Shown here piece after piece: positions 3,773 through 21,903 of a stretch of DNA of 23,930 nucleotides. Source of the DNA: a virus. Location of the stretch: positions 1-23,930 of IMG/VR virus record IMGVR_UViG_3300047409_000851; one strand, 5' to 3'. The position numbers and the translations under genes are program-made. Under the pieces are notes generated by a model that was given only the letters and a program-made list of their open reading frames with translations, ran no database searches and was not told the origin of the DNA. Every line of letters begins with the position of its first letter. Within the stretch, counting starts at the first letter, position 1.

Positions 3773-5151
3773 TACGGCTTCCTCCGGGGCTGCCCGTCAG
3801 GGCCGACGAACATCGTGCCGCTGGGGAGCTTGGCGTAGTCGGCCTCGCCCGTGATCCGCACCGTGCCGGTCCTGGCCCGGTGCTGGTAGTACGGGTTGAC
3901 GATCACGTTGGTCGGGTCGAGCCCGCGACGCGACGCCTTGTCGGCGTACTCCTCGCCGACAGCCTGGATCTTCGCGCCGGCAGCCTTCTCGTACAGCGAC
4001 GCCATCGACCTGATGTCGGCGACGAGCTTGTCGCTCAGGGGCTCGCCGCGAGTGACCGCCGCGATGATGTTGCTGGCACGGTCGATCAAGCCCTGCTGCT
4101 TGGCGACCCGGTCGTACTCGCCCTCGCGCACCACCGAGCCTGGGTCGAGGAACTTGTTCAGCAGCATGATCATGCCGCCCTGCTCGACTGCGGTCGGACG
4201 CCGGCCAGGAGCCAGGGCACCGAGCTTGCGGGTGGCGTCGATCTCAGCCGTGTAGTCCTTGGTCTGCGCGTCGAACTGCTTGGACATCGCGTCTTCGGTG
4301 CGCCATTCCTGGCCTTGCCGGCGAAGCTCCATGCCCTCGCCCGAACTGCCTTGCTTCGAGTGGGCGATAGCCAGCAGCACCTGATCGTGCTTGCGCTTCT
4401 CCTCTTCCTGCAGCAGCGCGAGGCGGCGGTTCTCCTGCATCGTCAGGTTGCCCTTGCGAGCTTGGTCGAGGGCGGTGATGCGCGCCTCGATCTGCTTCAA
4501 CTGAAGCTCCTGGGCGTGCGCCGGGTCCTCGATGAAGCCCTGGTCGGTCATCGTCCCGCCGGTCATCTTCATCGGTGCCTGCGACTCCCCGTACTGCTTC
4601 AGCGCCTGCGCCTGGAAGGGCTCGAAGCTCGGCCCGGCCTGCTGCGCCGCCAGGGCGAGCATCAGCTTGTTCATGCCGCCGGCCGACTGCTTGCGGTACA
4701 TCTCCTCCATGCCCGTGCGGTCGGGCGGGGCCAGCAGCCGCTGCTGGTCGGCGAACGCCTGCTCCTGACGCTTGCTCAGGTCTTGGTACTCGGTCATCAG
4801 CGGGTCGGGCGCGTTCGACGGCATCGGGACAGGCACGCCAGGACCGCCAGGAGCCCCTCCAGGCGACGATCCCGGCGCGGGAGGGGTAGGGGTGCCTGGA
4901 CGCCCTGTCGCCTGCGGCAGAGCCGTCCTGGGCGGTCCTGCCGGCATCGGCTGGGGTCCAGGCTGGGGCATCGGGGGCTGCTGGGGCATCGGCGGCGGCT
5001 GCTGCATCGGGCTCGCGCCGCCGACCGGCGCACCCATGCCGGCAGCGAACGAGCCGGGCTCGTTGCCGCGCAGAGCGTTTACACGCGCAGCACCGGGCGT
5101 GTACCCAGGCGTCAGGTCGCCCAGGATCGTGCCGATGACGTCTTCGTACAT
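3772..5151 (-). CDS. Probable internal virion / DNA ejection protein (459 aa)
   Basis: A 459-aa protein with a proline/methionine-rich, probably disordered segment at about residues 45-115 (QQPPPMPQQPPMPQPGPQPMP and similar), then a charged helical region with likely coiled coil (about 205-320), and a C-terminus ending in a LPSGTMFVGPDGQPRRKP-like tail. Similar YxxLPSGxxFxxPDGxxRxK endings are common on podophage internal proteins. It lies in a cluster of four ejection-type proteins. The start is the ATG at 5151, three bases after the upstream stop. The codons for Arg-Val-Asn near residue 23 are CGT GTA AAC, unusual for this GC-rich genome, and form one copy of the recurrent GTTTACACGC motif (5077-5086). 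Specific role unknown. Confidence 0.6.
   Translation of the reverse strand: MYEDVIGTILGDLTPGYTPGAARVNALRGNEPGSFAAGMGAPVGGASPMQQPPPMPQQPPMPQPGPQPMPAGPPRTALPQATGRPGTPTPPAPGSSPGGAPGGPGVPVPMPSNAPDPLMTEYQDLSKRQEQAFADQQRLLAPPDRTGMEEMYRKQSAGGMNKLMLALAAQQAGPSFEPFQAQALKQYGESQAPMKMTGGTMTDQGFIEDPAHAQELQLKQIEARITALDQARKGNLTMQENRRLALLQEEEKRKHDQVLLAIAHSKQGSSGEGMELRRQGQEWRTEDAMSKQFDAQTKDYTAEIDATRKLGALAPGRRPTAVEQGGMIMLLNKFLDPGSVVREGEYDRVAKQQGLIDRASNIIAAVTRGEPLSDKLVADIRSMASLYEKAAGAKIQAVGEEYADKASRRGLDPTNVIVNPYYQHRARTGTVRITGEADYAKLPSGTMFVGPDGQPRRKP
5077..5086 (+). repeat. GTTTACACGC motif, copy in the 459-aa gene
   Basis: Copy of GTTTACACGC, 65 bases inside the gene; encoded as CGT GTA AAC on the minus strand. 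Confidence 0.6.
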
Positions 5152-5154
5152 GGT

Positions 5155-5568
5155 CTACTCGATGTAGCTCGGGACGCCTTCGCCGCCGGGGATCTGCGGC
5201 ATCATCGGCGGCGGGACATAGCCCTGGCGCTTCTCCAGGGGCAGGGCCGACTGCTGCGCCTGCCGCTGCTGCTCCTGAAGGTCGGCAAGCTGCGAGCGGC
5301 GGTCGCCCATCAGGTTCTCCTGGGCGGTGTCGACGCCGCGCTGCTTCTGCGCAGCCATCACGTTGCCGGCAACATTCGCGACCATCGAGAGCGGGTTGGC
5401 CGCACGCACCGTGCGAGCCCCGCCGCCCTGGATCATGTCCGGCATCTGCGACGTCTGGCGCAGTTGGTTCACGAGTGCCTGCTTGCGCGCGATGCTTTGC
5501 TCGGCGGCGTTGTTGCCGCCCTGCTGCATCATGTAGTTCATCAGCATCGCTTCGTTGCCTGCGTCCAT
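5155..5568 (-). CDS. Small internal virion-type protein (137 aa)
   Basis: A 137-aa polar protein with many glutamine, methionine and alanine residues (MLMNYMMQQGG near the start, LQEQQRQAQQS around residue 97) and a proline-rich end (VPPPMMPQIPGG). No domain is recognised. It sits between two larger ejection-type proteins, 15 bases after one and 3 bases before the other, so it is probably part of the same complex, as the small internal proteins of podoviruses are. AGGAG lies 6 bases before the ATG at 5568, supporting that start. It could also be a chaperone or assembly factor for its neighbours. Confidence 0.55.
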   Translation of the reverse strand: MDAGNEAMLMNYMMQQGGNNAAEQSIARKQALVNQLRQTSQMPDMIQGGGARTVRAANPLSMVANVAGNVMAAQKQRGVDTAQENLMGDRRSQLADLQEQQRQAQQSALPLEKRQGYVPPPMMPQIPGGEGVPSYIE

Positions 5569-5583
5569 CTCGATCTCCTGGGG

Positions 5584-6714
5584 TTACATCGCCATCGCAG
5601 CAATGCCTGCGACGGACCCGATGCCTGACATCAATGCTTGGTTCTGCTGCTGCTTGGCGTTGTAGGCGTCCATGCCTGCGCTGTACTGATCCTTCGCCGC
5701 GCCCGTGTAGTTGACGCCGCCGGCAGAGGTCGAGGCGTTGAAGCTCGGCATGTTGGGCATCGCCACCTGGGCACCGGTCAGCAGCGCGTTCATCTCGTTG
5801 AGCGGCATCGCACGCTTCTGCTGCTGCTCGGCGATGTCCTGCTGGCGCAGCTTGTTCTGGTACTCCGACGCAGCCATCTGCTGCTGGAAATTCTGCTGGT
5901 TCGCTCCGGACATCATCCCGAAGTTTTGCTGGTTCTGGCCCATGCCCTGCTGCCACGCCTGCTGCTGCGCTGCGTTCTGGAACTGGCCGCCGGCAAGATC
6001 CTGCTGGAACTGCTGGCCTTGACCCTGAAGCTCCATCTGGTAGTTGCGCTGCTGCTCGGTGCCGGCCGTCTGCATGGCGTCGAACGCCTGCCGCGACTGC
6101 TGGTCGCCCATGCGCTGCATCTCGCGGTTCCAGGCTTCGCTGCCACGGGTCAGCCCCATGTTCTGGAGCTTGCCTTCCAGGGCTTGCTGCGCCTGCTGGT
6201 TCTGCGGCTGCATGCGCGCCATCAGCGCCTGCTCGGTGCGCTGCCGGCCAAGGTCGCCGCCGGCCTGCATGACGTTGGTCTTGCCGATGCCGGACATGAT
6301 GCCCTGGCCTGCACCGCTCGACAGGAAGGCGTTGGGGTCCGTCTCGCGAGCGCCGACCGCCTGCCCGCTCGCCCGCATCGAGTCCCAGTCGAACGGGTTC
6401 GCCATCGCCTCGCGGGCGCGGCCGATCTGCTCGCCGGCAATCTGGCTCTTCGCCGCGTCGATGCTCTGCTGCTGGTCGAGTGCAGCCTGGAGCTTCGGGT
6501 CGACCGTGGTGTTCTGGGTCCACTTGGTGACTTCCTTGCCCGTGGCCGGGTCGACCTCCATCGCAGAAGACCACTTCTGGGCTCCCCAGGGAGTGACCTG
6601 ATCGGGCCGGTTCGCCCAGTCGGCACGGGTCTGCGCTTCCTGGCTCGACGCGGCCGTCTTCTCGGCCATCGACGAGTAGTCGGGCGGGGGCGGGGGTCCT
6701 GACTTCTTGCCCAT
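5584..6714 (-). CDS. Glutamine-rich internal virion protein (376 aa)
   Basis: A 376-aa protein rich in Gln, Asn, Met and Ala. The N-terminus (MGKKSGPPPPPDYSSMAEK, then NRPDQVTPWGAQKW and DPATGKEVTKWTQNTTVDPKLQAALDQQ) matches, from memory, a widespread podophage family annotated as internal virion or tail proteins. Residues about 180-305 are a Q-rich, probably helical stretch, and the C-terminus is small and hydrophobic (MSGIGSVAGIAAMAM). I chose the ATG at 6714, which overlaps the stop of the GNAT-like gene (ATGA), over a start 11 codons upstream that would overlap that gene further. Likely role: a component ejected with or guiding the DNA; this is family-level inference. Confidence 0.65.
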   Translation of the reverse strand: MGKKSGPPPPPDYSSMAEKTAASSQEAQTRADWANRPDQVTPWGAQKWSSAMEVDPATGKEVTKWTQNTTVDPKLQAALDQQQSIDAAKSQIAGEQIGRAREAMANPFDWDSMRASGQAVGARETDPNAFLSSGAGQGIMSGIGKTNVMQAGGDLGRQRTEQALMARMQPQNQQAQQALEGKLQNMGLTRGSEAWNREMQRMGDQQSRQAFDAMQTAGTEQQRNYQMELQGQGQQFQQDLAGGQFQNAAQQQAWQQGMGQNQQNFGMMSGANQQNFQQQMAASEYQNKLRQQDIAEQQQKRAMPLNEMNALLTGAQVAMPNMPSFNASTSAGGVNYTGAAKDQYSAGMDAYNAKQQQNQALMSGIGSVAGIAAMAM

Positions 6715-7136
6715 CAGTGGGTCCTCCGTGGCGCGAGCCACTTGCATTCTTCGCGGCGCATCCGCATCAGGAAGAGCGAGCCGTCGGGGTGCGCGCCGTC
6801 AAGCTCCACCACGAGCTTGAAGCCCAGGCGTCGGTTGATGTCCAGGGCGGCGACATTGTCGCTCGGGACCATCGCCAGGACTTGGTTGCAGCCCATGACA
6901 TTGAACGGATAGTCGAAGCAGGCATGCAGCATCCGCTTGTCGATCCAGCCCGGCTCGCCCGCCATGTGCATCACGCACGAGGCTTCGTTGTAGCTGTCGA
7001 AGCCGACGACGCCGCGCAGCACGTTGGGGTCGCGGTCGGAGATCGAGCCGATGCAGCGGATGTTGACCGACGGCACGAGCCCGATGCGCCCGCAGAGCCA
7101 GGAGATGAGAGGACCCTGGGGCTGGCAGGCGATCAC
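6714..7136 (-). CDS. GNAT-like acetyltransferase-fold protein
   Basis: A 140-aa protein with the look of a compact GNAT N-acetyltransferase: an RGVVGFDSYNEASCVMHMAG beta-strand region (about residues 38-57), a helix with FDYPFNVMGCNQVLAMVP, then the characteristic NVAALDINRRLGF segment (GNAT motif B, N-aa-x-R-LGF) and a final strand with LFLMRMRREECKWL. The canonical acetyl-CoA pyrophosphate loop Q/R-x-x-G-x-G/A is not obvious. Similar short GNAT-like genes are known in podophage tail modules, substrate unknown. The start is taken as GTG at 7136, because its GTGA overlaps the stop of the nozzle gene; longer in-frame starts would run far into that gene. The stop overlaps the next ATG. Confidence 0.65.
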   Translation of the reverse strand: MIACQPQGPLISWLCGRIGLVPSVNIRCIGSISDRDPNVLRGVVGFDSYNEASCVMHMAGEPGWIDKRMLHACFDYPFNVMGCNQVLAMVPSDNVAALDINRRLGFKLVVELDGAHPDGSLFLMRMRREECKWLAPRRTH

Positions 7137-8722
7137 AGCACGCCCCCAGGCTCGACCAGCGCCTGCCAGCCAACGAAGAGCGTGTCGGCCGAAGCGCGGA
7201 CCCATGCCTCGAAGCTCTGCCCCGAGCCGGACCAGACCGCGACGTCCCAGAGGCCGACGTCCCAGGCACCGCTGCCGGCACCAAGGTATGCCGGCACGGG
7301 GCCGTTGATCTCAAGGTTCCACTCGCTATTCAGCCCGGCCTGGACGCCTGGGGCTGAATCGCTGATGAAGCTCGGCCGGACCATCTGGAACCGCTTGACG
7401 CGGATGCCCTCGCCCATCGGCTGGAAGGCGGTCACCACGAGCCCCTGGAGATCATCCCCAGGCACGGCATCGACCTGACCGTCGGTGCCGCCGACAAAGC
7501 ACTGCCAGATGTTGCCGTCGAGATCTCCCGAGAAGACCTTGCCGTTGAAGTCGATGACGGTCAGCATCGGGTATCCGCGCAGCATCGCGAACGCCTTGTT
7601 GTTGACCTCGTAAGCCCACTGCAGGTTCTCGATGTTGATCTCGGCCCGGTTGACGAGCAGCAACTGCTCGTGCGGCAGGAAGCGCACCTCCCAGTACCGG
7701 GTGTCGAGCGAGCCCGCGATCTCGACCGCCAGGGCACTGTTGATGGCGGCCGCGATCTGCGCGTTCTGGAAGAAGCCCTGGCCGCGCATCAACTCCGACA
7801 TGAAGACCATGCCGCGCTCGGACAGGATCGTGACGTCCTGCTGGTAGTTGGTGAAGTAGCGATGGCCGACCGGCACGCGGCCGATGAACCAGCGACCGAT
7901 CACTTGGAATTCGCCGGCAACGTCGGGGTCGTTGCCACCGTAGACCAGCACGTCGCCCTGGGTGGCGATGGCGATCAACTGGTTCTGCACGCCGACACCG
8001 CTGCTGCCGTCATACGTCCAGTTGATCAGCACCGACAGGCTGCCACCGTTGGGGAACATCGAGCCGAAGTCGAAGGCGGTCGCCGCGCCGGCATAGACAC
8101 CGAAGTCGAGATACCAACCCCGCGTCGTGTCCTTCTCGACGAACCAGACCCGGTTCTTGAAGACGGTGACGAAGCTGAAGAGGTTGGGGTTGACGCCGTC
8201 GATCTGGTTGACCCCGACACCCATCGTGATCTGGGTGAACGTCGTGCCGTCGTAGATCCAGTATCCACTGCCTGGGTTGACCATCAGCATGACGTGGACG
8301 CCAGCGTTGGTCGTGAAGTTGAGCGACGTCCACTCGCCGACAGGCGTGCCGGTCGGGACCGACAGCACCGGCACAGGGACGACGCCTGAGGCTGTAGGCG
8401 TCGTGATGTCGTAGATGTCGCCGGCAGCCGTCGCGGCGAAGAGCTTGTTGTCGCCCAGCGGCGACAGGTACTTCATCTCGGAGCGGACCTCGCCCGTGAG
8501 GTTGGAGACGTGGCGCAGGTAGCCCCGGCGCATCTGCAGCCCCAGCACGCGGGGCACGAGGTTCTCCAGGCGGATCGCCGTCTGCGGGTTGCCGCCGGGC
8601 AGCGGCTGGGTGACGTCCAGGCCGCGCAGCGGCGCACCGAACGGGAACGCCTGATGGTTCTGCGTGGCGCTCGACCGCCTGGGCGTCGTGCGGCGGGGTC
8701 CTTGGTAGGGGACGAGAGCCAT
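7133..8722 (-). CDS. Tail nozzle / hub protein (P22 gp10- or T7 gp12-like)
   Basis: A 529-aa, strongly beta-rich protein. Blocks such as NKLFAATAAGDIYDIT, YWIYDGTTFTQIT, FKNRVWFVEKDTTRGWYLDFG and GNIWQCFVGG look like successive blades of the beta-propeller in packaged-DNA stabilisation/tail hub (P22 gp10) or nozzle (T7 gp12) proteins. The length is close to P22 gp10. It would plug and extend the portal-adaptor channel. The start ATG at 8722 overlaps the stop of the preceding 77-aa gene (ATGA); the gene's own stop overlaps the GNAT start. Fold-level assignment only; the exact counterpart among tail tube proteins is uncertain. Confidence 0.7.
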   Translation of the reverse strand: MALVPYQGPRRTTPRRSSATQNHQAFPFGAPLRGLDVTQPLPGGNPQTAIRLENLVPRVLGLQMRRGYLRHVSNLTGEVRSEMKYLSPLGDNKLFAATAAGDIYDITTPTASGVVPVPVLSVPTGTPVGEWTSLNFTTNAGVHVMLMVNPGSGYWIYDGTTFTQITMGVGVNQIDGVNPNLFSFVTVFKNRVWFVEKDTTRGWYLDFGVYAGAATAFDFGSMFPNGGSLSVLINWTYDGSSGVGVQNQLIAIATQGDVLVYGGNDPDVAGEFQVIGRWFIGRVPVGHRYFTNYQQDVTILSERGMVFMSELMRGQGFFQNAQIAAAINSALAVEIAGSLDTRYWEVRFLPHEQLLLVNRAEINIENLQWAYEVNNKAFAMLRGYPMLTVIDFNGKVFSGDLDGNIWQCFVGGTDGQVDAVPGDDLQGLVVTAFQPMGEGIRVKRFQMVRPSFISDSAPGVQAGLNSEWNLEINGPVPAYLGAGSGAWDVGLWDVAVWSGSGQSFEAWVRASADTLFVGWQALVEPGGVL

Positions 8723-8955
8723 CAGGGGCTCGCCTCGTAGTAGGGCTGCTGCTGCGTGCGCTGCTGCGCCAGCGACTGCGCCTGCGCCTCGCAGTCTTCC
8801 AGGGCTCCGGACGAGCAGAGGTACTGCCCGTTCTCGTCGCGACAGATGTAGGTCTGGCGGCTGAAGAAGGCACCTTCTGCCGGCGTCCCTACGTTGGGAT
8901 TAGGGACGATTTCGACCGTCGGAGTCACCACCCAGCCTGGAGGAAGAGTTGCCAT
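8722..8955 (-). CDS. Small structural-region protein (77 aa)
   Basis: A 77-aa hypothetical protein. The middle (FSRQTYICRDENGQYLCSSGALEDCEAQAQ) carries three cysteines, and the C-terminal third is glutamine rich. No family recognised. It lies between the adaptor candidate and the nozzle gene and is coupled to the latter by an ATGA overlap, suggesting a connector or assembly role. The ATG at 8955 is preceded by AGGA. The 21 bases from the stop of the upstream gene to this ATG are one arm of an exact inverted repeat (other arm 14650-14670). Confidence 0.6.
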   Translation of the reverse strand: MATLPPGWVVTPTVEIVPNPNVGTPAEGAFFSRQTYICRDENGQYLCSSGALEDCEAQAQSLAQQRTQQQPYYEASP

Positions 8956-8975
8956 TTCGTTCCTGGGAAATGTCA
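8955..8975 (-). repeat. 21-bp inverted repeat, left arm
   Basis: On the minus strand this reads TGACATTTCCCAGGAACG followed by AAA, from the stop of the adaptor gene to the first base of the 77-aa gene ATG. It is identical to the plus strand at 14650-14670. The core TTCC-CA-GGAA is itself nearly palindromic. Confidence 0.8.
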
Positions 8976-9755
8976 GTTCTGGCGCATGCCGTAGAGGCTC
9001 GCCTCGGGCAGGTTGCCGATGCCGATGTATGGGTAGTCGTGGCGGCCACCCGCCATGTTCAGGATGTTGGCTCCCTTCTCGGCACCGATGCGCGAGTCGA
9101 AGGCGAGCAGGAAGTCGCGCACCGCAGCGGACGAGTCGAAGCCACGGGCTTCGAGCCACTTCAGCCGGGTCAGCAGCGTCATCAGGACGCCGTCAAGCTG
9201 GAACACGTCGCCGGCCTTCGTCGCGATGTTCTTGTACAGATCCGGGTTGTCCGCGTCCTGCACCAGCGCCTGGGACAGGTACATGAACTTGAACGGCTGC
9301 CCTGGCGGTGCCGGCGGATTCAGGAACCAAAGCTGGCGCTGGCGCATCTGCCACGTCAGCGTGAAGTTGGCGCTGATCGGGAAGACGCGATAGGTCATCC
9401 AGCCCTGCGGGCTGACCGGGCCGACCGCAGGGAAGCGCATGCCGGCATTCCACTGGGTCTGGTCGATGAAGCGGTAGAAGTCGCCCGGCAGATCGAAGGC
9501 GACCTCGTTCGACTCGCCAGGGACGGGCGGGATCAGCGTCTCGACGACGATGGTCCCTTCCTTGGTCAACTGGCTCCACTCGTAGGCGTTGAGCATCTCC
9601 AGGCTGGAGAGGTTCGCCACCGTCCGCATCAGCACCATGTTGGGGTCTGCCGACCCGACCGGGTCGGTCGGGATCGGCAGGTTGAGCATGGCGCAGACCT
9701 GCTGCATCAGCACCTGAAAGGTGCTGAAGTTGGTCATCGAGTAGGTCGTCGCCAT
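8973..9755 (-). CDS. Head-tail adaptor / connector candidate
   Basis: A 260-aa protein with an N-terminal helical region (FSTFQVLMQQVCAMLNLP ... NLSSLEMLNAYEW), a central beta region (FDLPGDFYRFI, MTYRVFPISANFTLTW, FKFMYLSQ) and a helical C-terminus with LLTRLKWLEARGFDSSAAVRDFLLAFDSRIGAEKG. The 'LKW-x-(A/K)xGxDxxxxxRxF' helices are typical of adaptor proteins that sit under the portal (T7 gp11 / P22 gp4 type). Its position just before the nozzle gene fits. ATG at 9755 follows the upstream stop by 15 bases, with a GGGGA-type ribosome site. Could alternatively be another tail-tube component. Confidence 0.6.
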   Translation of the reverse strand: MATTYSMTNFSTFQVLMQQVCAMLNLPIPTDPVGSADPNMVLMRTVANLSSLEMLNAYEWSQLTKEGTIVVETLIPPVPGESNEVAFDLPGDFYRFIDQTQWNAGMRFPAVGPVSPQGWMTYRVFPISANFTLTWQMRQRQLWFLNPPAPPGQPFKFMYLSQALVQDADNPDLYKNIATKAGDVFQLDGVLMTLLTRLKWLEARGFDSSAAVRDFLLAFDSRIGAEKGANILNMAGGRHDYPYIGIGNLPEASLYGMRQN

Positions 9756-9770
9756 GCTGTGTCCCCAGGC

Positions 9771-10454: not shown

Positions 10455-10518
10455 CTGGGTTCTCCTTGTGCGTGGGATGTTGGGGAATCTCGGCTGGCCC
10501 ATCCCACTGAAGCCTGCA

Positions 10519-10527
10519 GTTTAAACG
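10519..10527 (+). repeat. GTTTAAACG motif, intergenic copy
   Basis: Lies directly after the stop codon of the 190-aa gene and 65 bases before the 227-aa gene start. Confidence 0.6.
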
Positions 10528-12177: not shown

Positions 12178-13149
12178 TCAGCCGCCGACGAGGCGACCCT
12201 GGAACTGGCGGCCGCTGCAGGTCAGGTTGCCCGCCCAGGCCAGGATGCTGACCTCGGCGTCCTGATTGACGGCGTACCGCTTGTTGGGGTCCAGGGCGAC
12301 CATGTCGCGGGCCGAGTGCGGCCGCAGGAAGAGGTACTTGGTGTTCAGGAAGAACGTCGTGTTGGCGGTGTTGAAGCCGCCGATGCCGCCGTCCAGAACC
12401 ACGTCCGCGTCCATGAACTTGATGGACGGGAACCCCAGGTTACCAACCTCGGGCGACGTGAACCGCTGCTGCGCCTGCAGCGAAGCCATGTACACGCCCC
12501 AGGCCACGTTGTCCTGCACGAGCAGATCGGGCCGGTCGGTGCCGCGCACGAGGCTCGCCCACATCGTGTTCATGAAGCCCTGGATGTTGGCCGCCGTCTG
12601 CGCCACCGTCAGCGTGTACTTCGACGTCCAGAAGGTCCACGTCGAGCCGACGATGCCACCGTAGGCGGTCGTCTGCGAGGCGGGAGCCAGTGCCGGCACT
12701 GCAGCCGCAAGACCCGTGAGGGACTTGCCACCGTAGGTGGTGCCGTCGCTGTAGATGCCTTCCGCCATCAGGTTCGCCATCGTCGACTCGGCGACATTGA
12801 TGCGAGCCTCAAGGAGGTCGATCATCTGCTCCTTGCCGGCGTTCTGGATCTGCTCCAGGCCGGACATCGTGACTGGGCAGGCGAGTTGCTTGATGTTGAA
12901 CTCGGCGGCGCTGATGACGTCGCTCGCTGCCACCGGCAGAAGGTCGTACCCCGAGTACCAGCCGCCGTTCGCGTTCTGCGCGAAGGAAAGCTCTTGGTAG
13001 ATCACGTTGCCGCCCGAGAACGGCTTGCGATTGCCGCGCTGGTCGAGCTTCATGTACAGGGCGTTGTTCTTGGTCACGTTGTCCGCGATCTTGCGGGTGC
13101 GCGACTGGATCGTCGTTGCGACGATGTCCGAGACGTTGGGGAAGGCCAT
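12178..13149 (-). CDS. Major capsid protein (HK97-like fold candidate)
   Basis: A 323-aa protein that builds the phage head. The N-terminus (VSDIVATTIQSRTRKIADNVTKNNALYMKLDQRGNRKPFSGGNVIYQELSFAQN) matches a large family of podophage/siphophage major capsid proteins, with the N-arm, an E-loop-like region with YSGYDLLPVAASDVISAAEFNIKQLACPVTMSG, the spine helix (ARINVAESTMANLMAEGIYSDGT), and a C-terminal A-domain (DLLVQDNVAWGVYMASLQAQQRF ... HSARDMVALDPNKRYAVNQDAEVSILAWAGNLTCSGRQFQGRL). It directly follows the scaffold gene. GGAG lies 6 bases before the ATG at 13149. The 131-bp leader has repeats and a hairpin, and a strong terminator follows, so it is probably expressed as an amplified, largely separate transcript. 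Confidence 0.9.
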   Translation of the reverse strand: MAFPNVSDIVATTIQSRTRKIADNVTKNNALYMKLDQRGNRKPFSGGNVIYQELSFAQNANGGWYSGYDLLPVAASDVISAAEFNIKQLACPVTMSGLEQIQNAGKEQMIDLLEARINVAESTMANLMAEGIYSDGTTYGGKSLTGLAAAVPALAPASQTTAYGGIVGSTWTFWTSKYTLTVAQTAANIQGFMNTMWASLVRGTDRPDLLVQDNVAWGVYMASLQAQQRFTSPEVGNLGFPSIKFMDADVVLDGGIGGFNTANTTFFLNTKYLFLRPHSARDMVALDPNKRYAVNQDAEVSILAWAGNLTCSGRQFQGRLVGG

Positions 13150-13174: not shown

Positions 13175-13190
13175 CTGCGTTTACACGCAG
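13175..13190. promoter_or_regulatory. Leader hairpin upstream of the capsid gene
   Basis: CTGCGT-TTAC-ACGCAG is a perfect 6-bp dyad with a 4-base loop, 26 bases before the capsid ATG. It includes one copy of GTTTACACGC (13179-13188). No T tract follows on either strand, so it is not a terminator. It may be a protein-binding site or a transcript-stabilising hairpin. Confidence 0.5.
13179..13188 (+). repeat. GTTTACACGC motif, capsid leader copy
   Basis: Copy inside the leader hairpin 30 bases before the capsid ATG. Confidence 0.6.
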
Positions 13191-14443: not shown

Positions 14444-14452
14444 GTTTAAACG
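14444..14452 (+). repeat. GTTTAAACG motif, scaffold leader copy
   Basis: Lies between the stop of the 60-aa membrane gene and the ribosome site of the scaffold gene. Confidence 0.6.
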
Positions 14453-14453
14453 G

Positions 14454-14670: not shown

Positions 14671-14678
14671 CTCGATCT

Positions 14679-15074: not shown

Positions 15075-15246
15075 TGCCACCTCGCAACTGCTTGACGAGC
15101 GCCTGCTGCTTCAGCTTGGGACTGCCGGCATCGGCGGCGTTGAATTCCTGGGCGACGGCGACCGGCGGTGCCTTGGTCTTGTCGGGCTGCCAGCCGTGGG
15201 CTACTGCTGCCATGAACCTTGCCTGCTTAGGTGTAGATGAAGGCAT
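15061..15246 (-). CDS. Small conserved phage protein (61 aa)
   Basis: A 61-aa basic protein. The pattern MPSSTPKQARFMAAVAHGW ... VAQEFNAADAG is recognisable as a widespread short phage/prophage family (MPSKSxAQxRFMxAxAH ... VAKEFxxADKG) without known function. The ATG lies one base after the TAG of the 662-aa gene, and the stop overlaps the zinc-ribbon start, so the three are probably translated together. Confidence 0.7.
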   Translation of the reverse strand: MPSSTPKQARFMAAVAHGWQPDKTKAPPVAVAQEFNAADAGSPKLKQQALVKQLRGGNANV

Positions 15247-15247
15247 T

Positions 15248-17236
15248 CTAGAACCCCTTGGCTTCGTCTTCGTTGCGGAGCATGTCGACCAGCGAGCCCG
15301 ACGCCAGGGCGGCGGGGCCGGTGAAGTAGGCGAACTTGCGCCAGTCCTTGGGCTCGTCCTTGAGCCGCTGGGTGCCAAGCTCGCCGGTGACCGGGTCCTT
15401 CGAGGTGCCGGTGTAGCCTTTGGCTTTGTGTTCGCCCAAGCTCGCCTGCATCTCCTCCCAGGACATCTTCGGGAGCTTCTTGATGTCGGGGTGCGCCATC
15501 TCGTGGGGCTCGACGCGGCCCCGGTAGGTGTCCCACAGCCGCCACTGCTCGGGGAAGAGCGGAAGCTCGGGGTTCTTGCCGCGCGACTCGTTGACGTAGT
15601 CGACGATCTTGTTGTAGTACGGCCCGAATTCGGTCGCCGTCTCGGGCTCGAAGGCGAGCTTGCCCGGCTGGATGGCCGGATGCACGCTCGGGTTCACCTC
15701 GCCGCCGGCAAGCCGGTACTTGGCCCCTGGGTGGCTGGAGATCACATCGATGGCGGCACCTTCGAGCTTCTTGGCGAAGCCGGGGTCGGTGCCGGCACGG
15801 GCCGCGAGATCCGAGTGCGATGCCCCAGGCATGCCGGTAAGCTCGCCCAGCCGGCCGACGAAGGCGTGGCCGAGATCCGGGTCCTGCATCAGCCGGTCCA
15901 TGTTGTTGCGGATCATGTGGAGGTCGACCGCGCTCGTGTCGCCCTTCGCGAGATCGAGGAACGGCACCCCCAGGCTGGCCGTCTTCGGCCCGAGCCCCGG
16001 CACTTGGTTCATGATTCTCCGGGCTACATCCTGATAGCCCTCGCCCTGTGCCGGCGTGAACATCTCCGGATAGTCGCGCGCCATCCTGGCAAGCTGGGGC
16101 ATGTTGCCGAAGTCGGCGGTGCCCTTGACGCCCATGCCGCCGCGACTCGCGGCCCCCGTGCCCATCTCGTTGGCCCGTGCAGCCTCGGGCGTCATCGCGG
16201 CGATCCGGTTGATGTCCTCGGGGCCGGTGGCACGGTGGCGCATCGCCAGGAATTCGTTCTGGGTCAGCGGCGCGTTGGGCGAGAGCAGCGAGAAGTTGAG
16301 AGCGTTGAAACGGTCAGCCGCGTCGGTCGGCCCCGGCCGCTCGTAAGTCCGCAGGAACTTCTGCATGAGCTTGTTGTGCATGTCCTGGGGCAGCGCGCCA
16401 GGGTCGAAGTTGTTGGCCTTCATCTCCCAGACGTCGGGCAGCGTGAACTTGCCCTCCAGGCCGCCGGGGACCATGACCTCCTTGCGCGTCGTCAGGTCAC
16501 TCAGCCCCAGGCTTTGGCTGGGCGTTCGCGTCAGGTCGACCCCGTGCTTCTGGCCGAAGGCGGCCCACTCCTCGGGCGACATCTCGCCGGCAGGCTTCGG
16601 CAGCACCGGGGGCTCGGAGCGAAGCTCGGCCCGGTTCGCCAGGGCTTGGTCGACCTGTTGCGCGCCGATGGTCGGCCCCTTGCCGGCCTTCTCGGAGATG
16701 ATCGAGCGGGCGATGTCCGGCTCGCCGGCCTCGATGATCGGCGCCATCGCCGCCGCGCTGCGCTCGATCTGCGGCCCTGCCCTGCCGGCCTTGGCGACCG
16801 CCCTGGTGGCTGTCTTGGCCGCCCTGCCGGCCTTGGTGGGGTCGCCGGCCTCGACCAGACCCGCGATGCCGGCAGCCATCGCCGGGTTGGTCTGGCTGTA
16901 CTGGTCCCAGCCCCGCTCGGCCTGGGCGACGCCAGGGACATTCTTGGTCGCCCAGTCTCCAGCACCCTTGATGTTGGCACCAAGCTCCTGCAGCCGCTGG
17001 CCGCCGCGCTCGGTGAGCGGGCCACCCAGGGACTGGATGCGCTCGACCTGATCGGCCGCGTCCTTGGCGGACTGCTCCAGGCCGCGACCGCGCAGCAGGG
17101 AGGTGATGCCGTGGCTGGCCCCGGTCAGGCCGGCGACCGGGGTCTTGACGAGCCCGAGCAGCAACTGCCCGGTCGCGTCAAGCTGGCCGCCAGCCTCGGT
17201 CGCGCCTTCGCGCAGGAGGTCACTGATGCGCGACAT
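15248..17236 (-). CDS. 662-aa virion-region protein with HhH-GPD-like motif
   Basis: A 662-aa protein downstream of the portal. The N-terminal about 180 residues are alanine/glycine-rich and helical (LLLGLVKTPVAGLTGASHGITSLLRG; AGIAGLVEAGDPTKAGRAAKTATRAVAKAG), like ejection proteins. Residues about 308-450 resemble an HhH-GPD DNA glycosylase: LNFSLLSPNAPLTQNEFLAM (like the LLSxQ helix), then the hairpin VPGLGPKTA (412-420) and SAVDLHMIRNNMDRL (435-449). K418 and D438 correspond in position to the catalytic Lys and Asp of endonuclease III-type enzymes (spacing 20 versus 18 residues). No cysteine is present, so there is no iron-sulphur cluster. The C-terminal part (PLFPEQWRLWDTYRGRVEPHEMAHPD) is unassigned. 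Start ATG at 17236 has GAGG 6 bases upstream; longer starts would run deep into the 93-aa gene. The structural context is firm; enzymatic activity is inference. Confidence 0.6.
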   Translation of the reverse strand: MSRISDLLREGATEAGGQLDATGQLLLGLVKTPVAGLTGASHGITSLLRGRGLEQSAKDAADQVERIQSLGGPLTERGGQRLQELGANIKGAGDWATKNVPGVAQAERGWDQYSQTNPAMAAGIAGLVEAGDPTKAGRAAKTATRAVAKAGRAGPQIERSAAAMAPIIEAGEPDIARSIISEKAGKGPTIGAQQVDQALANRAELRSEPPVLPKPAGEMSPEEWAAFGQKHGVDLTRTPSQSLGLSDLTTRKEVMVPGGLEGKFTLPDVWEMKANNFDPGALPQDMHNKLMQKFLRTYERPGPTDAADRFNALNFSLLSPNAPLTQNEFLAMRHRATGPEDINRIAAMTPEAARANEMGTGAASRGGMGVKGTADFGNMPQLARMARDYPEMFTPAQGEGYQDVARRIMNQVPGLGPKTASLGVPFLDLAKGDTSAVDLHMIRNNMDRLMQDPDLGHAFVGRLGELTGMPGASHSDLAARAGTDPGFAKKLEGAAIDVISSHPGAKYRLAGGEVNPSVHPAIQPGKLAFEPETATEFGPYYNKIVDYVNESRGKNPELPLFPEQWRLWDTYRGRVEPHEMAHPDIKKLPKMSWEEMQASLGEHKAKGYTGTSKDPVTGELGTQRLKDEPKDWRKFAYFTGPAALASGSLVDMLRNEDEAKGF

Positions 17237-17501
17237 CTTTCGCCTCGGCGTAGCCGGGCTCGATGGCTTCGCCCTCGGGCGCTGCGCCACCGTGCGCCTC
17301 GACCCAGGCGACCTTCTCGTCGTAGGTCGCGCCGCCCGTGCTGAAGCGTGCCGGCATCTCCTCGGCAGCCTGGGGCTCCAGATAGGCACCCTTCTCGGCC
17401 TTCTTCTCCAGCTTGGCCTGCTCTTCGAGCGCCTCGCGCTCGTACTTCTGCTGGATCGGGTCGGGTTCCTGCTCGACGAGCTTCTCTTCCTTCTTGGTCA
17501 T
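17220..17501 (-). CDS. Charged helical protein (93 aa)
   Basis: A 93-aa hydrophilic protein. The first half is Lys/Glu-rich and likely coiled coil (KKEEKLVEQEPDPIQQKYEREALEEQAKLEKKAEKG); the second half (FSTGGATYDEKVAWVEAHGGAAPEGEAIEPGYAEA) is acidic. No family recognised. AGGAG lies 6 bases before the ATG at 17501, ten bases after the portal stop, and its end overlaps the next gene by 17 bases. Position directly after the portal suggests a small assembly factor, but nothing in the sequence proves it. Confidence 0.6.
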   Translation of the reverse strand: MTKKEEKLVEQEPDPIQQKYEREALEEQAKLEKKAEKGAYLEPQAAEEMPARFSTGGATYDEKVAWVEAHGGAAPEGEAIEPGYAEAKDVAHQ

Positions 17502-17510
17502 GGTCGACTC

Positions 17511-19607
17511 CTATTGCATGGGTGGACGGGGCATCGGTGCGCCTTGCATCGGCGCACCCTGCAATGGTGCTACCTCCGGGGGCGGCTGCATAGCCATGCC
17601 GCCAGGGCCGGGCTTTTGCTGGTCGGGCGGCCCGAGCAGCGCCTGGGCACCGTGGACGGCTCCCTGGACATGGTGCATGCCGGCCTGGGCGAGGTTCTTG
17701 ACAGCCTGGGTCTTGTTCTTGGTGACCTCGGACTTCGTCTTGTCGATCTCGGCCTGCTCTGCCGGTCCTGGGGGCTGCTTGCCCTTGTCGTTGGCGCTCG
17801 CGGCGGCGATGGCCTGATCCAGCACCGTCTCGATCTCCTTGGAGATCCGGAAGCCGCCCAAGCCCCACTTCATCATCTGCATCACTGCCGGCGCGGCCTC
17901 GGGGTTGGTCTGCAGGAGCGGCGTCACCGACTGGACGAACATGCCGACCGCCTGCATGAACTGGGACCGCGAGTCGCGCTCCTGCGCCCAGTCGACCATC
18001 GCCATCGTCTCGCTCTCGACGCTGATGCGGTAGAACTTGTTGTCGCCTGGGGTTTTAAGGAACTGGATCGCCGGCTGCGCCATGCCGGCATCGGGGCTGT
18101 GTTCGATGTTGGACCGCTGCAGGATCGTCTGCGGCTGGAACCGGTCGCAGATGACCTGGGCGCGGATGCGCTGGCCGCCGGCAACCCAGGCACCGATCTG
18201 CTGCTGCTTGAACTGCAGCCGGTTGCCGCCGAACTGCGCCTTCAACTGCTGCGCGCCCAGGGTTTCATCCGGGTTGGTCATGCCGCGCATGATGTCGCCG
18301 ATGCCCAGCACCTCGTAGAGCGCACCCTTGATCGTGTCGCGCTGCATGGTCAGCTTCTCGATCACTGCGGCAACGATCTCGATGGGCACCCAGTCCATCT
18401 GGCCCTTCAGCCCGCCCTTCTCGGCGAACGCGGCCCAGTTGTCGACCGGGATCATCTGGTTCTCCATGCCCTCTTGGAAGACACGGCCGATGGGCGTGCT
18501 GTTCTTGTCGTACACGCCGACCACCTTGCAAGCCTTCGTCAGGTACTTGATCCGGGTCGTCAACTCGTCGATCTGCTGGTACTGATCCTGGGCGAGCAGG
18601 TAGTCGGCGCGCGGGATGAACTTGGACGTCGTCAGGTTCGCCATCAGCGGCTGCGGGCACGGGAAGAAGCCCTTCAGCACCAGCGGGTCCTTCTTGTAGT
18701 CGCAGATCATGTTGAAGCCCAGGACGTGCCAGTAGGCGCACTTCGTGGTCTTGTCCCAGATCTCGAAGACCCCAGCCTTCTCCCAGGGGTCGTTGATGTG
18801 TCCCAGGGCATCAGCCTTGGACTTCTGCTTGCTGACCGGGATCACCTTGCCGATCTTGTCGCCGAAGCGGGCGCAAAGCTCCTCGCGGTTCATGTACACC
18901 CGGCGGGCGACCCAGCGAACGTCCTGCCAGACCCTGGCCGGGCTCCACCAGAAGTCTTCCCAGTAGATGTAGTCTGCCGGCGCATCCTCGTTGACGATAG
19001 CCTCGTACTCGATGGGCTCGGCCAGGACCGTGCCGGTCGCCGGGTCGGTGACAGCCTCGGTCTTGTTCTTGGCCGTCTCGACCTCGTAGCGATACCAGAC
19101 CTGTCCCAGGCCGACGATCAGGTAGTCGCTGACCGCCTGCCTCGTGATCTCGGGGTAGGTCGACTCGTCGTCGTCCTCGCAGTCGTTGTTCAGCATCCGC
19201 TGCAGGATGTTGGCCGCGACCCTTGAGACGTCGTCCTCGGAATCCTTGTGCGTGTTGCTGACGTCGACGTTGGGCGGCTTGGCGTAGAGGGAGGACTTCA
19301 GCACCTCGATGTTCGACCAGAACAGGTTGAACTTCGAGTCGGCATCGTTGAAGCTCGCGCCGTCGCGCTCGTCGAGATACCGCTGCACGAGCTTCTTGGC
19401 GGTGATGTGGAACTTGGAAAGCTCCTTCTTGGCCGCCTGAAGCTCGCGCTCCCAACGCTCGGCCAGCTTCGCCGGGTCCTTGCCCTGGTCTTTCTCGGGC
19501 ACCAGCGACTGATCCCCAGGCTTCTTGCCGTCGTGGATGTCGTGGTACTCCTTGCCGTCGGACGGCTTTTCGTCACCAGCGACTGCAGCTTCACCGTATG
19601 TAGCCAT
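17511..19607 (-). CDS. Portal protein
   Basis: A 698-aa protein close in length to the P22 portal (gp1). It would form the dodecameric ring through which DNA is packaged and ejected. Signs: the N-terminal FNLFWSNIEVLKSSLYAKPPNVDV and DYLIVGLGQVWYRYEV segments, WWSPARVWQDVRWVARRVYMNREEL, a long FIPRADYLLAQDQYQQIDELTTRIKYLTKA helix, DIMRGMTNPDETLGAQQLKAQFGGNRLQFKQQQIGAWV and VESETMAMVDWAQERDSRSQFMQAVGMFVQSVTPL, all typical of podophage portals. The C-terminal about 60 residues are Pro/Gln/Met-rich with a short APMQGAPM repeat and probably disordered. Its ATG overlaps the large terminase stop (ATGA). Confidence 0.88.
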   Translation of the reverse strand: MATYGEAAVAGDEKPSDGKEYHDIHDGKKPGDQSLVPEKDQGKDPAKLAERWERELQAAKKELSKFHITAKKLVQRYLDERDGASFNDADSKFNLFWSNIEVLKSSLYAKPPNVDVSNTHKDSEDDVSRVAANILQRMLNNDCEDDDESTYPEITRQAVSDYLIVGLGQVWYRYEVETAKNKTEAVTDPATGTVLAEPIEYEAIVNEDAPADYIYWEDFWWSPARVWQDVRWVARRVYMNREELCARFGDKIGKVIPVSKQKSKADALGHINDPWEKAGVFEIWDKTTKCAYWHVLGFNMICDYKKDPLVLKGFFPCPQPLMANLTTSKFIPRADYLLAQDQYQQIDELTTRIKYLTKACKVVGVYDKNSTPIGRVFQEGMENQMIPVDNWAAFAEKGGLKGQMDWVPIEIVAAVIEKLTMQRDTIKGALYEVLGIGDIMRGMTNPDETLGAQQLKAQFGGNRLQFKQQQIGAWVAGGQRIRAQVICDRFQPQTILQRSNIEHSPDAGMAQPAIQFLKTPGDNKFYRISVESETMAMVDWAQERDSRSQFMQAVGMFVQSVTPLLQTNPEAAPAVMQMMKWGLGGFRISKEIETVLDQAIAAASANDKGKQPPGPAEQAEIDKTKSEVTKNKTQAVKNLAQAGMHHVQGAVHGAQALLGPPDQQKPGPGGMAMQPPPEVAPLQGAPMQGAPMPRPPMQ

Positions 19608-20968
19608 CAGAGTCGTCCTTGATTCGCGGAGGGTCCGACCGTCTCATGCAACTGGTCGAGCGTGAAGGTGCGGTTGAGAGGCGGCACGATTATGGTCTTC
19701 TCGGGCGGCGGGGGCTCGATGACCGCCAGCTTCGCGGAGCCTTCCATGTAGGCGTCGCACGGGTGGCTCGACCAGTCATGCTCGGGCTCGCTGCTGAAGG
19801 TCTTCGTCTCCTCGTCGTACTTGAAGTGGTACGCCCGCAGCGCCTGCACCAGGGGCTTGCAGACCTCGTTGTTGCTGATCCTGACCCGGCGCAGCATCAG
19901 CCTGCCGGCATTGATCGAGTCGGCCTTCTTGCGAAGCTCGTTTACACGCACGTCGACGCCTTCCCAGGGCCGGTCGGACAGGAACGTCTCGACGACGCTG
20001 CGCTTCGAGGCGAAGCTCTTCGCCTTGGCATCGTGCGGCAGGCAGATGACGTCGGCGCGGGGCTGCTTGCGTAGCCTGGGTATCCACTCCTCGGCGTCCA
20101 TGCCCGAGCCGTCGTCGTAGTGGAAGATCTCGAAGCCGCCGCGCATCCGCTTCCACCAGACGAACGCGGCCTTGTCCCGGTAGCCGATGTCCGACGTCAC
20201 CCAGACCTCGTCGTTGACGCTCGGCCGGTCGACGAAGCAGATCCGGCCCTGCTTCTCGGCCTGCTCGATGTAGCGGCCGAAGATCGCGCCGACGTTCGCG
20301 GCGCTGAAGTCGCAGTCGTACTCCTGCCGGTACAACTCGTCGGGCATCTCGCGGCGCTCGTCGTCCAGCACGCTCTGCGGGATGTGCTTGGTGTCGTCGA
20401 CACCCAGGTGCGAGTGGAACCAGTGGTCGCTGCCCTTGGCAAGCTCGATCAGGTCGTGGAAGTGGTTGTAGCCTCGGGGTGTCGAGATGAAGGCTGCCCA
20501 GCCACCGTTGCCGGCAAGCATCGGCCGGAACATGCTCCAGGCTCTCGGGTCACTGAGCGCAGCCTCGGACATCACGATGCCGAACGGGTTGGAGCCCACC
20601 AAGCTGTCGTAGTAGTCGCTGCCGACCAGTTGCCAGATCGCGCCCGACCGCAGCGTGATCTTCATCTCGGTCTTGTTGGTGTCCTCGCGCAACTGCTTGG
20701 GGAACACCACGTCGAGCGTCTTCCTGCCCTGGTTGTCGAAGCCGTCCCAGACCACCTTCCTCGCGTGCTTGTGCGTCGGCAGCATATGGAAGTACATGCC
20801 TGGGCGCTCGAAGCTCATCTTCGCGGTCTGGTGCAGCATCGTCAGGTCCTTGCCGAACCGACGCGGCCAGCAGCAGGCTGCACGCAGCCCACCGTGGTCG
20901 AAGTAGCGCATCAGCGCCTTCTGCGGCGGCCGACCGACGAAGCCGTTGGGCAGGGTGATCTCAGCCAC
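19607..20968 (-). CDS. terL: Terminase large subunit
   Basis: A 453-aa DNA-packaging motor. ATPase: Walker A-like loop CWPRRFGKD (34-41; the RRxGKD variant, with Asp where Ser/Thr is usual, is known in podophage enzymes), Walker B FGIVMSEAA (129-137, acidic E135), and coupling motif ISTPRG (161-166). Nuclease: the first metal-binding acidic strand is VTSDIGYRD (D260), with PHDAKAKS later and a C-terminal HDWSSHPCDAYM segment carrying further candidate acidic residues. The start is GTG at 20968, which overlaps the tiny upstream ORF by 8 bases; the stop overlaps the portal start. Codons for Arg-Val-Asn in VDVRVNELR are CGT GTA AAC and form one copy of the GTTTACACGC motif (19940-19949). Confidence 0.92.
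   Translation of the reverse strand: MAEITLPNGFVGRPPQKALMRYFDHGGLRAACCWPRRFGKDLTMLHQTAKMSFERPGMYFHMLPTHKHARKVVWDGFDNQGRKTLDVVFPKQLREDTNKTEMKITLRSGAIWQLVGSDYYDSLVGSNPFGIVMSEAALSDPRAWSMFRPMLAGNGGWAAFISTPRGYNHFHDLIELAKGSDHWFHSHLGVDDTKHIPQSVLDDERREMPDELYRQEYDCDFSAANVGAIFGRYIEQAEKQGRICFVDRPSVNDEVWVTSDIGYRDKAAFVWWKRMRGGFEIFHYDDGSGMDAEEWIPRLRKQPRADVICLPHDAKAKSFASKRSVVETFLSDRPWEGVDVRVNELRKKADSINAGRLMLRRVRISNNEVCKPLVQALRAYHFKYDEETKTFSSEPEHDWSSHPCDAYMEGSAKLAVIEPPPPEKTIIVPPLNRTFTLDQLHETVGPSANQGRL
19940..19949 (+). repeat. GTTTACACGC motif, copy in terL
   Basis: Copy inside the large terminase gene; encoded as CGT GTA AAC (Arg-Val-Asn). Confidence 0.6.
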
Positions 20969-21080
20969 GCTTGCGCATCCGCCAGAGCATCAGCCGGTCG
21001 GCAGCGATGCCAGCCATGAAGGCGACGACGAAGTCGAGCCCGTAGGTCCACCAGGGATCGGCGACCACGAGCGTGATCAC
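20961..21080 (-). CDS. Tiny membrane protein, GTG start (39 aa)
   Basis: A 39-codon ORF read as V(M)ITLVVADPWWTYGLDFVVAFMAGIAADRLMLWRMRKRG: one predicted transmembrane helix (about 14-31) and a positively charged C-terminus, giving an N-out/C-in preference. Its GTG overlaps the stop of the preceding 22-codon ORF (GTGA), and its own stop lies 8 bases inside the large terminase start. The chained overlaps support translation; function is unknown. It could act only as a coupling leader for terminase. Confidence 0.45.
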   Translation of the reverse strand: MITLVVADPWWTYGLDFVVAFMAGIAADRLMLWRMRKRG

Positions 21081-21145
21081 GTCGCGCACCAACCGATGAG
21101 GGCGAGCATGCCGCACACCACGATGAAGGCCAGCACGCGCAGCAT
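21077..21145 (-). CDS. Tiny hydrophobic ORF (22 aa)
   Basis: A 22-codon ORF, MLRVLAFIVVCGMLALIGWCAT, nearly all one hydrophobic helix with two cysteines. Its ATG overlaps the methyltransferase stop (ATGA) and its stop overlaps the next GTG. Too short for gene finders. The overlaps at both ends and clean membrane-helix composition argue it may be translated; it is listed with low confidence. Confidence 0.35.
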   Translation of the reverse strand: MLRVLAFIVVCGMLALIGWCAT

Positions 21146-21903
21146 CAGCCTGCGCCGCCGATCCAGATGCTGGGCGTCACTGCGTCGCTGTCCAGCACCT
21201 CGCAGACCGCCTTGCCCAGCACCTCTGCCGGCAGCCGGTGCCACTGCATGCCGTAGTCGAGCCGCACGAGCCCTGCGTGCTGCAGGTCGCGGCTGTCGAG
21301 CGCCTCGTACCGCACCGCATCGTTGAAACGCTGCGCGCCGTCGACGACGTCGATGACCAGCAGCGTGCCTCCAGGCTTCAGGTACGCCTGGGCCATCGTC
21401 AGCATGCTGGGCACGCTGTCCGCGTGGTGCAGCGAGTAGCCCATCAGCACCACGTCGAACGTGCCCAGGGCCGCCAGGAGCGTCGGGTCGCGCATGTCCC
21501 CATGCACCAGCCTGCCAGGGCACTGGCAACGCTCTAGCTGCGCCCTGGATGCGTTGACCAGGGTGAACCGGAGGTCAGGCTGCGCCTCGCGCCAGTACCG
21601 CTCCATGCCGGCAACGCCGCAGCCCAGGGACAGCACGCTGGAACCCGGCGGGGTGTTTACACGCTCCAGCACCATCAGGCTGTGCTTGCGCTCGTCAGGG
21701 TCGAGCAGGAACAACTGCAGCACGCTGACGCCTTGCGACAGCAGCCAGTCGGTGACGCCACCGACGACACGCTCGTCAGCGTAGAGCGGATGGTCTGCCG
21801 GCGGCCAATTCCCAGGAACGTAATCGTGGCCGTTGGCACCCGAGCCCTGGGGCTTCATCACCGTCTGCCAGCCCTTCAGCGAGGCTACATCGACCTCGTC
21901 CAT
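21145..21903 (-). CDS. Class I SAM-dependent methyltransferase
   Basis: A 252-aa Rossmann-type methyltransferase. Motif I is SVLSLGCGVAGMERYW (89-104), the end of strand 2 is FTLVNAS (113-119), then VHGDMRDP (133-140), motif IV-like FDVVLMGYSLHHAD (149-162), and LKPGGTLLVID (175-185). The residue expected to hold the SAM ribose is Asn117, not Asp/Glu; the form (V/L)NxSxxQL is known among small-molecule and lipid-type methyltransferases. No DPPY or PCQ motif is present, so it is unlikely to be a DNA base methyltransferase. The C-terminal part (RLPAEVLGKAVCEVL) may be a substrate cap. It sits between the small and large terminase genes. ATG at 21903 follows the upstream stop by 3 bases. Substrate unknown. 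Confidence 0.8.
   Translation of the reverse strand: MDEVDVASLKGWQTVMKPQGSGANGHDYVPGNWPPADHPLYADERVVGGVTDWLLSQGVSVLQLFLLDPDERKHSLMVLERVNTPPGSSVLSLGCGVAGMERYWREAQPDLRFTLVNASRAQLERCQCPGRLVHGDMRDPTLLAALGTFDVVLMGYSLHHADSVPSMLTMAQAYLKPGGTLLVIDVVDGAQRFNDAVRYEALDSRDLQHAGLVRLDYGMQWHRLPAEVLGKAVCEVLDSDAVTPSIWIGGAG
21655..21664 (+). repeat. GTTTACACGC motif, copy in the methyltransferase gene
   Basis: Copy inside the methyltransferase gene, encoded as CGT GTA AAC (Arg-Val-Asn, residues 81-83). Confidence 0.6.

Follow-up and report, generated by a model that had tools for sequence, protein, structure and literature searches.

Phages of the L5 type carry dispersed repressor sites, the stoperators, and groups of these phages have their own version of the site. 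More than 20 such sites are spread over the genome, in promoters and in short intergenic spaces, according to the accessible part of PMC9283540. In Bacillus phage SPbeta the repeat SPBRE was found in silico first and was later shown to be bound by the master repressor MrpR (accessible part of PMC10516654), and SPRTN, a protein of another kind, is an HExxH protease that acts on DNA-bound proteins and cleaves itself (accessible part of PMC9240642). Here we describe a dispersed site in a 23,930-bp stretch of virus DNA (IMG/VR record IMGVR_UViG_3300047409_000851, the window in what follows), which comprises a late arm and the first early genes and in which the motif GTTTAMACG occurs six times. The six copies are likely to be binding sites of a phage SprT-like protein that would act as an autoregulated, genome-wide regulator of transcription. 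Physical binding and reading of the sites by this protein is very probable, because protein and site co-vary, because both are present together in unrelated phages and because of a small prospective count; for regulation of transcription by the protein we have a more cautious preference. As read from sequence, several unrelated groups of bacterial viruses have docking sites of this kind dispersed in their genomes, the motif being one version among them, so that a 10-mer from a single fragment leads to a testable protein–DNA system in phages whose recorded hosts are Actinomycetota, Alpha-, Beta- and Gammaproteobacteria and a cyanobacterium.

The sites resemble the L5-type stoperators in being many and dispersed, with 4–43 per carrier here (few in phage ep3 and its relatives). 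The L5 site, however, is an asymmetric 13-mer in a fixed orientation to transcription, read by a monomeric repressor with a helix-turn-helix and a second DNA-binding domain, whereas the present site is a 10-bp dyad in mixed orientation and its candidate reader is a SprT-like zinc protein. As with SPBRE and MrpR (PMC10516654, in its accessible part), the repeat was found first and the putative repressor would have been recruited from an enzyme family. The tyrosine-recombinase fold of MrpR has lost catalysis, whereas the HExxH motif is intact here; SPBRE is 15 bp long and lies in about ten promoter regions, whereas the present sites are also intragenic. With SprT and SPRTN the candidate shares an HExxH SprT-like domain and a zinc-binding region, but it is the structure of the DNA and contacts with other proteins that recruit SPRTN, and reading of a 10-bp sequence is not described in the accessible part of PMC9240642. 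Actinobacteriophages of clusters AZ, EH and others have an annotated SprT-like protease of the same family as the candidate, for which the literature matches listed give the annotation as a protease and no DNA site or regulatory role. Nor did these matches, whose coverage leaves most subscription journals outside, contain a link between a SprT-like protein and dispersed sites. The proposed system would put the SprT/Spartan protease fold to a new use.

One phage group gives the comparison a particular point. Powerpuff, of cluster AZ, forms immune lysogens and has no identifiable repressor, and a SprT-like protease is among the common genes of the AZ and EH phages (both from the accessible part of PMC8758107). 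Cluster AZ phages carry both parts of the proposed system, the SprT-like gene and the sites (Lego, one of the AZ/EH phages, has 25), and the SprT-like protein is a candidate for the missing repressor of the temperate Arthrobacter phages of cluster AZ (and EH).

The dyad site in the window and its relatives

All six copies of GTTTAMACG lie on the + strand where the initial annotation had placed them, against 0.01 expected, and none of 100 dinucleotide shuffles reaches six. Its view that the 10-mer does not recur by chance is borne out, as GTTTACACGC (as GCGTGTAAAC) is found four times where 0.002 are expected. Of the seven TTTA words on the + strand, six belong to the motif, and the − strand has only two, both within the two palindromic copies; as a word it is scarce in the window, 14.1 occurrences being expected on both strands together. 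The late genes are on the − strand, so that the copies read CGTKTAAACG with the genes (CGTGTAAACG or CGTTTAAACG). A near DNA match to the window was not found in the annotated phage set, which may omit records very near it. The sites, and the gene used to find relatives, are as follows.

5077..5086, − strand: site 1, GCGTGTAAAC read with the genes, within the gene for a 459-residue protein, as CGT GTA AAC
10519..10527, palindromic, no strand: site 2, GTTTAAAC, directly 3′ of the stop codon of the gene for a 190-residue protein
13179..13188, − strand: site 3, in a short inverted repeat; 30 bp separate it from the start of the major capsid gene
14444..14452, palindromic, no strand: site 4, GTTTAAAC, 15 bp from the start of a putative scaffold gene (382 residues)
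19940..19949, − strand: site 5, within the terminase large subunit gene
21655..21664, − strand: site 6, within the gene for a 252-residue protein, as CGT GTA AAC
12178..13149, − strand: major capsid gene (phrog_9953, E 3.7e-103), the query for finding relatives

The three intragenic copies all read CGT GTA AAC (Arg-Val-Asn), and the three intergenic ones (10519, 13179 and 14444) do lie near gene starts, at distances that are now measured; site 2 is 17 bp from the first ATG of a 243-residue reading and 65 bp from the start of a 227-residue one. The 382-residue gene that was initially called scaffold has no PHROG match. The inverted repeat around site 3 is kept with changed arms in several relatives, and by eye the arms of this capsid-leader repeat co-change across relatives even where the site itself is lost.

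The relatives comprise 131 loci of related contigs from capsid and portal searches, the capsid search contributing the best 80 of 307 loci. The sites were found again among them, and a reading by selection therefore stands. Some relatives are rich in sites, whereas the site is missing from others whose capsid protein is up to 99% identical; several of these site-less relatives carry dispersed words of other kinds, namely GATTTAAA and ATTTACAC in L096 (genome G002), CATTTACACG in L011 and CTTTAAAG in L015 and L038. A genome scan with the capsid alignment returned three metagenome-assembled loci, with neither GTKTAAAC nor a SprT-like gene in the parts examined.

When every TTTAAA or TGTAAA was read in the longer genomes, three site classes were found that are rarely mixed. 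Class C, GTKTAAAC, accounts for 136 of 149 such words in the window and ten genomes; class T, TKTAAAT under a looser rule that leaves one half free, for 24 of 24 in two genomes; and class G, CTTTAAAG, for 42 of 49 in three genomes, with purity lowest in G015 (9/13) and G018 (8/12). By its consensus, (C)GTKTAAAC(G), the site is a dyad some 10 bp long, without an extended flank and in up to about 20 copies per 40-kb genome, and the outer C and G are more strictly kept where GTGTA forms one half. In L094 (class C) and L095 (class T), which are 95% identical over 6.5 kb, all three common sites are AAAC in the former and AAAT in the latter, a fourth being present in L094 only; this concerted change bears the mark of a reader with altered taste. 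A site in a sequence context matching that of site 5 also occurs in class C and class T relatives. The 18-kb fragment L016 has no TTTAAA word, but GTGTACAC four times (0.18 expected) and CGTGTACA seven times (0.45 expected), possibly a fourth site class; a SprT-like gene was not seen in this fragment.

Selection on the sites was further measured with synonymous-codon shuffles (200 per genome, six genomes, sites counted in called genes), which gave means of 0.02–0.16 sites where 2 (the window), 6, 9, 12, 13 and 6 are seen. For the window itself the expectation is 0.03, and two intragenic copies rather than three are counted because a trimmed gene start excludes the third. Site frequency is thus far above that of codon-preserving shuffles, and together with the relatives this strongly supports the proposal that a DNA site is under selection. 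Among the three functions that had been suggested for such a site, binding of a regulator fits best, and no evidence was found for packaging or segregation.

A SprT-like protein as candidate reader

The candidate reader is a predicted protein of about 190 residues, encoded in the early arm, in which a HExxH metalloprotease-type domain is followed by a zinc ribbon. It was singled out by a scan, favouring no gene in advance, of 2,157 alignment columns from the 11 gene families that have at least three independent class G lineages, a set that leaves aside genes without a homolog in G015 or similar. A single column tracks site class, being uniform on either side and different between the two: residue 153 of the SprT-like protein, which is Arg in 13 class C or T alleles and Tyr in four class G alleles from three lineages. 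Gln150, among the five looser hits of the scan, is constant in classes C and T and replaced by Asp or Lys in class G. The signature before the C-terminal zinc ribbon is Q-x-[TA]-R for classes C and T, and class G alleles have DKTY, KATY or KPSY in its place; over the last 50 residues L225 (C) and L218 (G) differ at 12 positions, three of which lie within QSTR/DKTY. In 15 of 17 podophage alleles the SprT-like start has a site with a TTTAAA or TGTAAA core no more than 130 bp upstream, in some cases built of mixed half-sites; by eye, this site often falls between −35-like and −10-like boxes or immediately follows the −10.

Profile searches detected the SprT-like gene in 14 of the 16 site-bearing podophage genomes (in G008 only via L203) and additionally in L225 and L070. 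It was not found in the window or in the partial G012, nor in G011, G019, G021, G022, BUCT555, Mx8, Mx9 and ppBjS10J-1, the searches covering 40,000 of 40,318 bases of G011, 40,000 of 41,825 of G021 and 48,496 of 53,495 of Mx9; for G020, which has three sites, the search covered the L059 part only. By synteny with G001, the gene belonging to the window is expected about 4–5 kb past its right end. The Pfam SprT-like profile PF10263 scores 24.0 bits against the G003 protein (cut-off 25.6), and the family has no sequence match in the PDB at E 1. H81, E82, H85 and H94, the HExxH motif and a further His, are invariant in all 23 proteins aligned.

Adjoining the SprT-like gene is a weakly GIY-YIG-like gene (L143:12112-12624 in G003; L140:2407-2874 in G002). 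Its product has a very similar QxTR zinc ribbon, which over 31–59 residues shares 53–71% identity with its counterparts in Microdon, Reedo, Zeta1847 and ep3, and the reader module may therefore be portable.

In unrelated phages the same protein family and the same site are found together. Among 133 proteins of G014, G003 and the window, the SprT-like family is the only one with homologs (E 1e-4) in all five unrelated QxTR phages tested, Reedo, Zeta1847, ep3, Mica and Microdon, and the actinobacteriophage proteins that were aligned are 33–46% identical to that of the podophages. GTGTAAAC occurs 28 times in Arthrobacter phage Reedo (0.2 expected) and 22 times in Microbacterium phage Zeta1847 (0.08 expected). 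The family is present in 163 phage records, from which 26 phages were picked by hand, several of them close relatives and hence not a random sample, and GTKTAAAC was counted in them as distinct sites with palindromes told apart. All 17 carriers of QxTR have 4–43 sites and all nine non-carriers have none or one. The carriers are Reedo (28), Zeta1847 (22), ep3 (4), Mica (7), the Streptomyces phage Microdon (43), R5C (17), Henoccus (42), Alexa (9), Arya (7), KA2-1 (8), Gretchen (16), Lego (25) and Emotion (17), with four phages whose signature, QxTR in each, was read before the count: ECO1230-10 (5), R26L (21), Barnstormer (23) and Pan1 (16), which include relatives of phages counted earlier. The non-carriers are the KSRSG[KR]S Microbacterium phages Eden, Katzastrophic, Clayda5, Dismas and AvGardian (no site) and Franklin22 (one), and the signature-less FP1 (one), PSA20 and Epa43 (none). 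Over the whole or most of the record, 0.26 sites are expected in Reedo, 0.09 in Zeta1847, 0.37 in Mica, 0.04 in Microdon and 1.88 in ep3.

The reversed pattern occurs 0–3 times per strand, most often in KA2-1; four phages in which no SprT-like gene was found have no GTKTAAAC; and the class G word CTTTAAAG turns up a single time, in one of the 26 phages. In 14 of the 17 carriers the annotated SprT-like gene has a site no more than 150 bp upstream, the exceptions being Zeta1847, R5C and R26L. The form of the site follows the phage group: the asymmetric GTGTAAAC is nearly exclusive in actinobacteriophages (Reedo 28/28, Lego 25/25, Henoccus 41/42, Gretchen 14/16) and the palindrome GTTTAAAC in phages of Proteobacteria and cyanobacteria (R5C 17/17, Pan1 16/16, R26L 20/21, Alexa 8/9).

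These data suggest a model in which the SprT-like protein, probably as a dimer, would cover the 10-bp dyad as two 5-bp half-sites. The residues just before the zinc ribbon are predicted to help set the base that flanks the TTTA core, Q-x-[TA]-R for classes C and T and x-x-[TS]-Y for class G, which amounts to a proposed specificity switch at the level of single residues. The protein would occupy its own promoter and 4–43 sites over the genome, many of them adjoining gene starts; the promoter position points to autoregulation, and the sites near gene starts to wider control of transcription. The protein is probably a repressor, and possibly the immunity repressor in temperate phages. Repression by a block to elongation at intragenic sites is put forward tentatively, as something we rather doubt. 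Self-cleavage of the protease as an off-switch is a speculation that we hold to be quite improbable.

Role of the sites and rival explanations

The layout of the sites bears on how the protein might be used. Of 193 podophage sites, 112 lie within called genes, 11 at gene edges and 70 between or across genes, the last to be compared with coding fractions of 0.81–0.96; the genes were called mechanically, and strand is mis-assigned for some of them (G001). Between −60 and +30 of a start codon lie 11 of the 28 sites of Reedo (3.9 expected) and 14 of the 22 of Zeta1847 (3.1 expected). The variation of the gaps between sites is below the random median in all 15 podophage genomes and at p≤0.05 in 10 of them, values that are not independent as these genomes are related; elsewhere spacing is more even than random in Microdon (0/5000), R5C (0.03) and Reedo (0.048), but not in Zeta1847 (0.16). 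The even spacing may leave room for other genome-wide roles.

One such role is that the sites are not operators but loading points, by which the phage marks its own DNA every 1–4 kb for a DNA-bound SprT-like protease. The protease would rid phage DNA of host proteins (silencers, defence or crosslinked proteins), and the site in the protease's own promoter would do no more than limit its amount. The invariant HExxH and further His, the even spacing just described, the many sites within genes and in late operons, and the action of SPRTN proteases on DNA-bound proteins and on themselves (accessible part of PMC9240642) speak for this explanation. Against it are the excess of sites around gene starts in Reedo and Zeta1847, their excess outside called genes in the podophages and a promoter position typical of autorepression, and we regard this explanation as rather unlikely. 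Strict silencing of the stoperator kind, in which the protein would block both initiation and elongation in the prophage, is favoured by the number and dispersal of the sites and by their positions at stop/start junctions, which resemble those of cluster A mycobacteriophages (accessible part of PMC9283540). The L5 sites, however, are asymmetric 13-mers aligned with transcription, whereas the present ones are symmetric or nearly so and not fixed in orientation, and some carriers show no integrase; this explanation is doubtful. A combination is also conceivable, though unlikely, in which the dyads would dock a sequence-specific SprT-like protease every 1–4 kb that both silences genes and cleaves DNA-bound proteins. 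The docked protease might then cleave itself when replication or damage exposes abnormal DNA and so be repressor, sensor and off-switch in one. If this combination were true, the sites would be a genome-marking system common to phages of at least two bacterial phyla, and its SprT-like protein would again be the missing repressor of the cluster AZ and EH phages.

Other readers of the sites can be weighed more briefly. Two small podophage proteins accompany the motif, a helix-turn-helix protein (A1) and an AT-hook-like protein with an RGRP motif (A2), the latter encoded in the window.

22613..22981, + strand: first early gene, A2, rejected as site reader

Of the 16 site-bearing podophage genomes, 13 have A1, for which site-less phages gave only one weak match (ppBjS10J-1, E 0.022), and its structure model (predicted local distance difference test score, pLDDT, 84) has weak PDB matches to lambda/434-type repressors, none at E 0.001. 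A2 is present in 11 of these genomes and broken in G003, and its model is poor (pLDDT 59). Both were rejected: over the region printed, A1 alleles match between L188, of class C, and L189, where two sites are T and one is C, and A2 alleles between L212 (T) and L213 (C). Neither alignment has a class-tracking column, in a comparison that left unlabelled any locus with fewer than two class words or with a second class above about one third and that excluded the far relatives L048–L086 except L064; the scan of 2,157 columns gave none for A1 either; and neither protein has a homolog in Reedo, Zeta1847, Mica, ep3 or Microdon. A reader among these two is very improbable. Still less probable is a host protein: the site is present in phages of very different hosts, but these are recorded from five bacterial classes, and Microbacterium SprT phages have 16–23 sites with QxTR and 0–1 without it. 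The DUF6011 protein (233 residues), a HicA-like 70-residue protein and others were set aside, their T-specific columns having little weight because class T is one lineage. An RNA hairpin was discarded since the sites in general lack extended arms, although by eye the capsid-leader copy sits in an inverted repeat with co-changing arms. ParB–parS was rejected because the site differs in sequence from parS; no ParB was found in the part of the podophage proteins that was scanned.

Several observations count against a SprT-like autoregulated regulator of transcription, which we nevertheless prefer. Most podophage sites (112 of 193, by the mechanical gene calls) are intragenic, relative to transcription the sites are oriented both ways (51 along with it, 31 against it, 6 undecided), and they are spaced more evenly than promoter operators would need. 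A plain repressor does not need the invariant HExxH of the 23 aligned proteins, and A1 and A2 also accompany the motif within the podophages. For the change from class C to class T no determinant is proven, because the T alleles are one lineage. Judged by taxonomy lines and names, there are about seven groups among the 17 carriers and about three among the nine non-carriers, so that these data points are not independent. The AT-richer ep3 has 4 sites against 1.9 expected, not clearly above, and its close relatives have few (Arya 7, KA2-1 8, ECO1230-10 5); with an expectation of 1.88 the count alone proves little in ep3, and perhaps in these three, and for this group it is the site in the gene's promoter that carries the argument. 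Finally, no integrase was found among the podophage proteins scanned against Pfam (part of the early genes), none is listed for ep3 and none was found in bases 5000–53356 of Microdon; lysogenic immunity therefore cannot be assumed as the general role.

Other repeats and genes

A second palindrome, TGCCGGCA, occurs 27 times in the window, against 1.6 expected. In a screen of loci of at least 7 kb, only L007, L143, L189 and L227 also pass, with 3–9 copies. In G003, two small phage proteins with PEP-CTERM sorting motifs are encoded at L143:2173-2772 and 2804-3451.

The Stenotrophomonas phage BUCT555 (L176) carries three perfect and two near copies of GTTCCACGTGGAAC, which we take to be the bacterial parS consensus, at 37885, 39381, 79, 473 and 2371, across the genome ends; perfect copies are also present in L041, L044, L158 and L167. 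BUCT555 also has, in one run at L176:9891-15328, genes annotated as DNA polymerase I, adenylosuccinate synthetase and DUF550, which may point to a modified-base (Z-genome) pathway.

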